Virus record (IMG/VR): IMGVR_UViG_3300021335_000118
Span: 1-20,549 of that record
Source of the DNA: a virus
DNA: 20,549 bases
Direction: 5' to 3' (one strand)
Shown: positions 11,442 to 12,551 of the stretch, piece after piece
Position numbering within the stretch: the stretch's first letter is position 1
Layout: each line of letters opens with the position of its first letter
Position numbers and translations under genes: made by a program
The notes under the pieces: generated by a model
What the model was told of the DNA's origin: nothing
Databases searched by the model: none
Seen by the model: the letters and a program-made list of their open reading frames with translations, nothing else

Positions 11442-11903
11442 TTATGCGTCTTCTGTGAAATCGTCGTCGTCAGTACCTGATAATGTGTTATCATCACCAG
11501 CTTCTTCCATTCTAACTACACCAGATGCCGCTGAACCTGTCAGTGCATATTTTAAAGATGTACCGTCTAATGCGTTTGAACCTGTTGAACTAGGTTGAGC
11601 TACAGTTACTTTACGTCCTGCAATTTTACTTACACCGTAAGTTTCTGAATCAGCACCTTGTACTGAAATTGACATTTCGCCTGCTGATAAATTAGCAGGT
11701 AATACACCAGTTTTTAGTGTACAATCAAATGTTCCAGCTGTACCAATTTCTTCGCAACGGAATTTTTTTGATCCTAATTGTTTAACGATATAACCTTCTT
11801 TAACTGCTGTGCCGTTATGAAAGTTTACTTTGATTTCATTTCCACTTGCTGTAGGGCCTACGCCTGCTACACCAAATAATTTTTTGTTTAGTGGTCTTCC
11901 CAT
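11442..11903 (-). CDS. Probable virion protein following the head module (153 aa)
   Basis: A 153-residue protein beginning MGRPLNKKLFG behind a strong AGGAGA ribosome site. The body is beta-rich (IKVNFHNGTAVKEGYIVKQLGSKKF, then a KKFRCEEI strand). The C-terminus is acidic and low-complexity (GDDNTLSGTDDDDFTEDA). The sequence reminds me of small conserved structural proteins in marine T4-like phages, but I cannot name it. It has its own late promoter (11999-12006) and a hairpin-rich leader. An abundant virion or decoration role is an inference from position and expression signals. Confidence 0.8.
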   Translation of the reverse strand: MGRPLNKKLFGVAGVGPTASGNEIKVNFHNGTAVKEGYIVKQLGSKKFRCEEIGTAGTFDCTLKTGVLPANLSAGEMSISVQGADSETYGVSKIAGRKVTVAQPSSTGSNALDGTSLKYALTGSAASGVVRMEEAGDDNTLSGTDDDDFTEDA

Positions 11904-11998
11904 TTGTTTTCTCCTATATAAGTAGTCCTATCCGGGTTCTATCCGGTACGCTGTGGGTACAGCATAAGTCCGCCTTGCGGCTCGCTATCTGACACATG
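11904..11998 (-). promoter_or_regulatory. Hairpin-rich late leader upstream of the 153-aa gene
   Basis: About 90 nt between the late promoter and ATG 11903. On the minus strand it holds three short perfect inverted repeats: CCGC-AAG-GCGG, GCTGT-ACCC-ACAGC and CCGG-ATAGAAC-CCGG. An unpaired TATATAGGAGAAAAC carrying the ribosome site follows. The GC content is higher than in the adjacent genes. It is probably a structured 5' leader; its function is unknown. Confidence 0.5.
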
Positions 11999-12006
11999 TA
12001 TTTATC
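11999..12006 (-). promoter_or_regulatory. T4-type late promoter (one mismatch)
   Basis: The minus strand reads GATAAATA followed by CATG. It lies immediately after the T-rich tail of the ncRNA terminator, so transcription of the left virion block can restart here after the upstream unit ends. Confidence 0.55.
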
Positions 12007-12048
12007 ACAAAAGGAAAAAGGCATACAAGTAAACTTGTACACCTTTAA
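12007..12048 (-). terminator. Rho-independent terminator of the candidate ncRNA
   Basis: On the minus strand AAGGTGTACAAG-TTTA-CTTGTATGCCTT forms a 12-bp stem with two G-U pairs and a 4-nt loop. The end of the stem merges into TTTTTCCTTTT. This is a standard intrinsic terminator, located just past the paired 3' end of the structured RNA. Confidence 0.78.
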
Positions 12049-12272
12049 AGAATAAGCAATTATAGGGAGGACTCGGTTATACCTCCAACCCCTCGACCGA
12101 GATGCCATTCTCAAATCCAGGGAGCCTAATTCCGCTCGGTAGAGCGATGTGACTCAGCGTATTTCTACTACCAAGCCTGGGTACCACCCCTAATTAGCCT
12201 AGTTCGACGCTCTGGTAAACGCCTCTTCCTAGCACTATAAAACAAAAGTCAATTACTCTTTTGTTGCTTATG
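12007..12272 (-). ncRNA. Candidate structured phage non-coding RNA (~220-265 nt)
   Basis: A sigma-70 promoter (12278-12306) predicts a 5' end near 12271, and a terminator closes the unit at 12048-12007. No credible ORF is present. Possible helices, named by + coordinates: terminal P1 12264-12271 with 12052-12059 (8 bp, no mismatch); a local hairpin 12242-12248 with 12258-12264 (7 bp); P3 12235-12240 with 12060-12065 (6 bp); an arm 12209-12215 with 12117-12125 (7 bp, 2-nt bulge); 12192-12197 with 12126-12131 (6 bp); a small hairpin 12179-12189; and 12168-12176 with 12134-12142 (9 bp, one G-U). The 3' side can form an H-type pseudoknot (12096-12101 with 12072-12077; 12082-12086 with 12066-12070). 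The region is GC-richer than its surroundings. It does not read as tRNA, tmRNA, RNase P RNA, SRP RNA or a group I intron by eye. The role is unknown. Confidence 0.7.
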
Positions 12273-12277
12273 TTAGT

Positions 12278-12306
12278 AATATAGCAAACTTTACATAGAA
12301 AGTCAA
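12278..12306 (-). promoter_or_regulatory. Sigma-70 promoter of the candidate ncRNA
   Basis: The minus strand shows TTGACT (12306-12301), a 17-nt spacer and TATATT (12283-12278). This is close to the host housekeeping consensus with optimal spacing. The expected start, about 7 nt after the -10, falls at the first base of the terminal helix of the RNA. Confidence 0.78.
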
Positions 12307-12325: not shown

Positions 12326-12478
12326 TTAAATTTTTTGTAATCTTGGATCATCACTTAATATATTCTTCTCGCATCTTGGTCTAGACAAGCGATTTTTAGC
12401 CATTTTTTCCATTATGGCTTTGTGAGCTAGTTTTGTCTTGATTTTTTTGCGAGCTAGTTCGAAGTCTTTGTGATTCAT
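12326..12478 (-). CDS. Small basic 50-aa protein
   Basis: A 51-codon frame with ATG at 12478, stop TAA at 12326 and a strong AAGGAGAG ribosome site 6 nt upstream. The product begins MNHKDFELARKKIKTKLAHK and ends SDDPRLQKI. It is lysine/arginine-rich, probably mostly helical (residues 5-30), with one Cys. It lies downstream of speD and may be co-transcribed with it from the sigma-70 promoter at 12944-12972. Many T4-like phages carry small early proteins that modify host functions, but no family is recognised here and the function is unknown. Confidence 0.7.
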   Translation of the reverse strand: MNHKDFELARKKIKTKLAHKAIMEKMAKNRLSRPRCEKNILSDDPRLQKI

Positions 12479-12551
12479 AACACTCTCCTTTTTACAGTTA
12501 AGTGCGTTCCTTCGCTAATGCTACTTCCGGGCTATAAGCCTGAACGTAATA

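Follow-up and report, generated by a model that had tools for sequence, protein, structure and literature searches.

A structured RNA encoded beside the capsid genes of a T4-type phage is, judged from its sequence, a divergent member of the manA family (RF01745) and not a new family—a known RNA, filed as a gene-leader switch, that appears here to be built like a free-standing RNA gene. We consider it likely that the locus is an autonomous gene for an early phage non-coding RNA of about 255 nt, constructed on the manA core and probably acting in trans.

The window (the whole 20,549-nt stretch of DNA that was analyzed; its source record is a 20.5-kb phage fragment) carries a T4-type gene set including the gp20 portal, the prohead protease, and gp23, followed by S-adenosylmethionine decarboxylase, a 50-aa open reading frame (ORF), the manA unit, a small gene of the virion region that falls in no named family, and genes for tail and baseplate (Table 1). 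Its gp23 and portal are nearest to those of large myoviruses (Sinorhizobium phage Phosso, the Pseudomonas PA5oct group, and similar phages), not to those of cyanophages. Downstream of the unit's terminator come, in order, a late-promoter-like element (GATAAATAC), a freshwater-2 RNA, and the virion gene; relatives also have such an element in the interval from the terminator to the gene. We take GATAAATAC to resemble the consensus of T4 late promoters, TATAAATA. Freshwater-2 is widespread beside gp23 in related phages, with manA present or absent: 20 capsid-locus relatives keep it without manA, and most of these have a late-promoter-like element between gp23 and the gene. On the other side of the unit, a glutamine riboswitch aptamer (RF01739, 47 bits; 12548..12501, minus strand) is placed directly upstream of the 50-aa ORF, and this aptamer is also found upstream of manA in two relatives (L218 and L236).

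Table 1. Features of the manA unit and its immediate surroundings, in window coordinates
Feature	Position	Strand	Basis or remark
Virion gene with freshwater-2 leader	11903..11442	-	
Freshwater-2 RNA (RF02980), leader of the virion gene, neighbour of the manA unit	11901..11984	-	67 bits against a cut-off of 49.9
GATAAATAC, late-promoter-like element of the virion gene, outside the RNA unit	11998..12006	-	read from the sequence
Intrinsic terminator (stem 12046..12017 plus T-rich tail)	12013..12046	-	13-bp stem, predicted
P0, 3' strand (UUGCUUAU)	12052..12059	-	
manA RNA core, divergent subfamily	12056..12265	-	RF01745, 55.7 bits; covariation; 227.7 bits to subfamily model R1, which was built with the window sequence included
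P0, 5' strand (AUAAGCAA); predicted transcript start at about 12271	12264..12271	-	
Sigma-70-type promoter, TTGACT-17-TATATT, extended -10 (TG)	12278..12306	-	10/12 matches, best in the region
50-aa ORF, family unassigned	12478..12326	-	

The manA RNA was described in 2010 from marine metagenomes and cyanophages as a cis-regulatory element (Weinberg et al. 2010, PMC2864571) and is filed in Rfam as type Cis-reg; the alignment was later revised by Rfam, with 48 significant base pairs in the corrected version (PMC7779021), and cyanophage S-CREM1 also carries a copy (PMC9964418). In the literature searched, we found neither a functional or ligand study of manA nor transcriptome data covering it. 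A preliminary description of this locus had proposed a new non-coding RNA matching no standard RNA gene, with a match to a known Rfam family named beforehand as one of the results that would refute it. Using cmscan, we recovered manA over positions 1-192 of 192 (E = 5e-12), at a score of 55.7 bits that is marginal relative to the gathering score of 55.2, and the claim of a new family is therefore refuted; the window sequence forms standard base pairs at 51 of the 54 Rfam manA pairs that were mapped. That the RNA belongs to a separate family merely resembling manA is, in our judgment, scarcely credible. The score clears the gathering score by just 0.5 bits, and the subfamily model R1 has no match in five of the seven cyanophage manA loci searched, but the alignment is full-length at a very low E value, two relatives (L204 and L205) reach up to 80 bits and so bridge towards Rfam manA, and R1—gathered with the pattern TATAGTGCAAGGAA and without cyanophage manA—still matches two cyanophage manA RNAs (E = 2e-9 and 9e-9).

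Relatives were gathered via capsid homology or short exact patterns, and proportions given here refer to the matches listed, not to population frequencies. The Rfam model detected manA in at least 13 contigs with the closest gp23 genes, mostly under its cut-off, and in Pelagibacter phage Mosig; R1 detected it in 15 of the 80 closest-gp23 contigs listed, one copy being truncated. A scan for TATAGTGCAAGGAA added further members (among 120 stretches listed, 55 without the expected 3' strand were set aside), yielding an alignment of 54 sequences, A3; of 50 records that carry these sequences, only 10 pass the Rfam cut-off. Compensatory changes, which the preliminary description had proposed looking for in homologues, are abundant in this alignment: both sides change in 41 of 56 consensus pairs, and 96.7% of cells are paired. 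The covariation score of 0.508 exceeds both shuffled alignments (0.165, a comparison inflated by relatedness) and slid structures (at most 0.105, controls that retain relatedness), bearing out the earlier impression of structure beyond chance; for the structure taken from the window only, the corresponding values were 53 of 75 pairs and 0.374 versus 0.150. As far as such alignments can demonstrate it, the manA core and its terminal helix are under strong structural selection. A 17-mer scan of genome contigs for bacterial copies returned only scattered matches in unrelated taxa, which we take to be chance. Separately, one contig (L032, 4847-5073, plus strand) encodes a promoter-led structured RNA between gp23 and freshwater-2 that lacks an Rfam match and has a weak full-length match to R1 (19.9 bits, E = 6e-6); it is possibly a still more distant manA relative.

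The terminal helix, P0, is not part of the Rfam manA model. It consists of 8 bp, AUAAGC(AA)/(UU)GCUUAU (AUAAGCAA/UUGCUUAU), joining both ends of the RNA, and its inner two pairs compete with a 5' hairpin. Since the 5' strand begins 7 nt past the -10 hexamer, the transcript would start at P0 itself. Relatives show the compensatory variants AUAAGC/GCUUAU, AUAAUGC/GCAUUAU, AUAUGC/GCAUAU, UAUAGC/GCUAUA, and AUAGU/ACUAU, and contiguous pairs average 5.9 within sequences compared with 3.46 ± 0.33 when strands are swapped between relatives (0/2000); the end-joining helix at the predicted start, first noticed in the window, thus covaries in the subfamily. Among cyanophage manA RNAs, P0 is unsupported by the same measure (4.92 versus 4.80 ± 0.16).

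Upstream and downstream of a structured RNA of about 215 nt on the minus strand, the transcription signals seen in the preliminary description are largely confirmed. The near-consensus sigma-70 promoter and its 17-bp spacer stand as described, and relatives have equivalent promoters in the corresponding position: for the 14 members from the capsid locus and Mosig, best scores average 10.4/12, compared with 8.0 when shuffled. Promoter-like signals are present in every group compared. The rho-independent terminator is likewise present, with a stem of 13 bp where 12 bp had been given. Coding potential was rejected, in agreement with the earlier reading: no credible ORF is found in the RNA, the sole overlapping same-strand ORF of at least 40 aa being a 66-aa TTG ORF that runs through the terminator. 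The 265-nt transcript has a predicted minimum free energy of -87.4 kcal/mol, compared with -71.5 ± 5.4 for shuffled sequences (z = -2.9).

Terminators, identified by a rule of our own with shuffle controls, divide manA copies into two architectures. At the capsid locus, each of the 13 distinct members, counting the window, has an intrinsic terminator no more than 75 nt from the core (shuffles, 0.33 ± 0.53), and all 13 keep promoter, RNA, and terminator together, so that the self-contained unit first proposed from the window recurs in its relatives; the terminators themselves vary in sequence between members. Conservation of a promoter and terminator (both predicted) along with the RNA is one mark of an autonomous sRNA gene. 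By the same token, with a terminator directly downstream in every case, these copies do not occupy the 5' UTR of a gene, a location that the sequence model does not specify but that most manA members are annotated with, and that does apply to Mosig and other sister copies. Among the matches listed for the TATAGTGCAAGGAA set, 23 of 48 have a terminator (shuffles, 0.57), compared with 4 of 41 cyanophage manA loci (shuffles, 0.70); 5' leaders make up most cyanophage copies and about half of the subfamily.

P0 type follows this division. In terminated copies, P0 is of the AAGC type, the UAGC type, or something similar (four copies of the AAGC/UAGC type, L221, L244, L270, and L327, have no detected terminator), and AUGC/GCAU-type copies are leaders. 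Terminated copies precede many unrelated genes—cytidylyltransferase-like, radical-SAM-like and cold-shock-like (the latter two by eye), and the virion gene—whereas leaders precede a gp32-like single-stranded DNA-binding protein (SSB) gene (MNTSIAALKRSK; by eye), rubrerythrin (annotated in Mosig), or an unnamed gene, and several have a late-promoter-like TATAAATA inside or right after the 3' strand of P0. The Mosig copy (MT647606 108164-108371, minus strand; L203), unannotated in that record, scores 64 bits and forms the leader of the rubrerythrin gene. Two further phages with leader-type copies (L223 9321-9583 and L248 7476-7740, both minus strand) carry an alphaproteobacterial permuted tmRNA gene, and the Mosig annotation includes SsrA; tmRNA genes in leader-type phages point to SAR11-like hosts for the subfamily. 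In cyanophages, at least 4 of 41 manA loci have a tRNA a short distance downstream (L118, L087, and L106 by ARAGORN; L101 by Rfam). We found no tRNA downstream of subfamily manA, and thus no sign of tRNA-coupled release there. At least eight cyanophage loci (L101, L125, L098, L099, L129, L108, L111, and L096) also share a recurring element, GACCTAAGATGCAAC...GGGCAGATGGTC, just downstream of manA.

The terminated layout could also mean that the window holds an ordinary manA cis-regulatory element, a riboswitch candidate whose terminator acts as the expression platform, controlling whether transcription continues into freshwater-2 and the virion gene. Many riboswitches have a terminator following an aptamer-like RNA, and the unit fits this layout. 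The Rfam type, the original description (Weinberg et al. 2010), and the leader position of about half of the subfamily and most cyanophage copies point the same way. We nevertheless judge this reading unlikely: terminator sequences vary freely next to a constant core, terminated copies stand ahead of many different genes, and the virion gene has a late-promoter-like element and freshwater-2 of its own, found without manA in the 20 relatives mentioned above. Furthermore, a search for antiterminator pairing showed that duplexes between terminator arms and their own RNA are no more stable than those with swapped partners (-8.43 versus -8.33 ± 0.23 kcal/mol; 999 of 3000 swaps as favorable). Together, GATAAATAC with freshwater-2, the varied downstream genes, and the lack of own-specific pairing argue against a transcription-attenuating riboswitch, which we rejected, and the window copy is probably not a leader; antitermination that does not involve pairing, e.g., protein-mediated, may operate. 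A T-box leader, suggested by the appearance of hairpin GGGUGGUACC, was rejected as well, given that relatives differ from one another in the GGUGGUACC-like loop and there is no Rfam T-box match.

Alternatively, the unit might be a mobile or decaying leader cassette that has lost its gene, leaving promoter, RNA, and terminator functionless. Leader forms do exist, and the position is variable, with manA missing from the capsid locus of those 20 relatives. We regard this reading as highly improbable, however, as covariation is strong with terminated and leader copies taken together, promoters are near consensus, and terminators occur in all 13 distinct capsid-locus members; these features therefore indicate purifying selection.

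Under the favored reading, an autonomous RNA gene, host RNA polymerase would transcribe the manA unit early, and the resulting RNA of about 255 nt would accumulate with both ends protected, by P0 at the 5' end and by the terminator hairpin at the 3' end. It would then act in trans, most probably by using its conserved junctions and loops to bind a protein or small ligand. The preliminary description had suggested that a stable RNA made early might sponge or regulate RNAs or proteins of host or phage. Simple antisense pairing seems somewhat less favored, because the conserved positions are distributed across junctions and helices of the structure and do not form one long unpaired stretch. With the manA core serving as leader of gp32-like SSB and rubrerythrin genes in sister phages, cis and trans uses would coexist, and because most cyanophage copies and half of the subfamily are leaders, manA may act mainly, or may originally have acted, in cis. 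It is conceivable, if on balance doubtful, that manA is instead fundamentally a phage RNA that acts in trans, with release by a terminator in this lineage and, elsewhere, either release by processing (e.g., where a tRNA directly follows) or residence in a leader; were this so, it would target a host or phage factor in early infection of abundant marine bacteria. For manA, an orphan family with no reported function or ligand that we could find, these possibilities have practical consequences. If copies that have no gene to regulate are kept intact, promoter and terminator included, across many phages, ligand searches guided by the downstream gene may be looking in the wrong place, and the minimal, self-contained unit makes a trans function directly testable. 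The subfamily mostly escapes the Rfam cut-off, and the one named isolate that we found has Pelagibacter as its host, implying that manA is not confined to cyanophages.

Compared with known systems, the unit shares with RF01745 a full-length covariance-model match, the same order of helices, an occurrence in T4-like marine phages, and a strong promoter directly upstream. It differs in its sequence divergence, which places most of the subfamily under the Rfam cut-off, in the extra covarying helix P0, in having its own terminator in place of a downstream gene, and in its carriers, whose nearest capsid relatives are not cyanophages and whose one named isolate found is a Pelagibacter phage. Freshwater-2 (RF02980) is adjacent, with strand and phages in common, but is distinct from the manA unit, being a short leader that follows a late-promoter-like element and reaches up to the start codon. 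The glutamine riboswitch (RF01739), similarly a phage-borne structured RNA nearby on the same strand, is by contrast a distinct RNA that lies outside of the manA unit, upstream of the 50-aa ORF.
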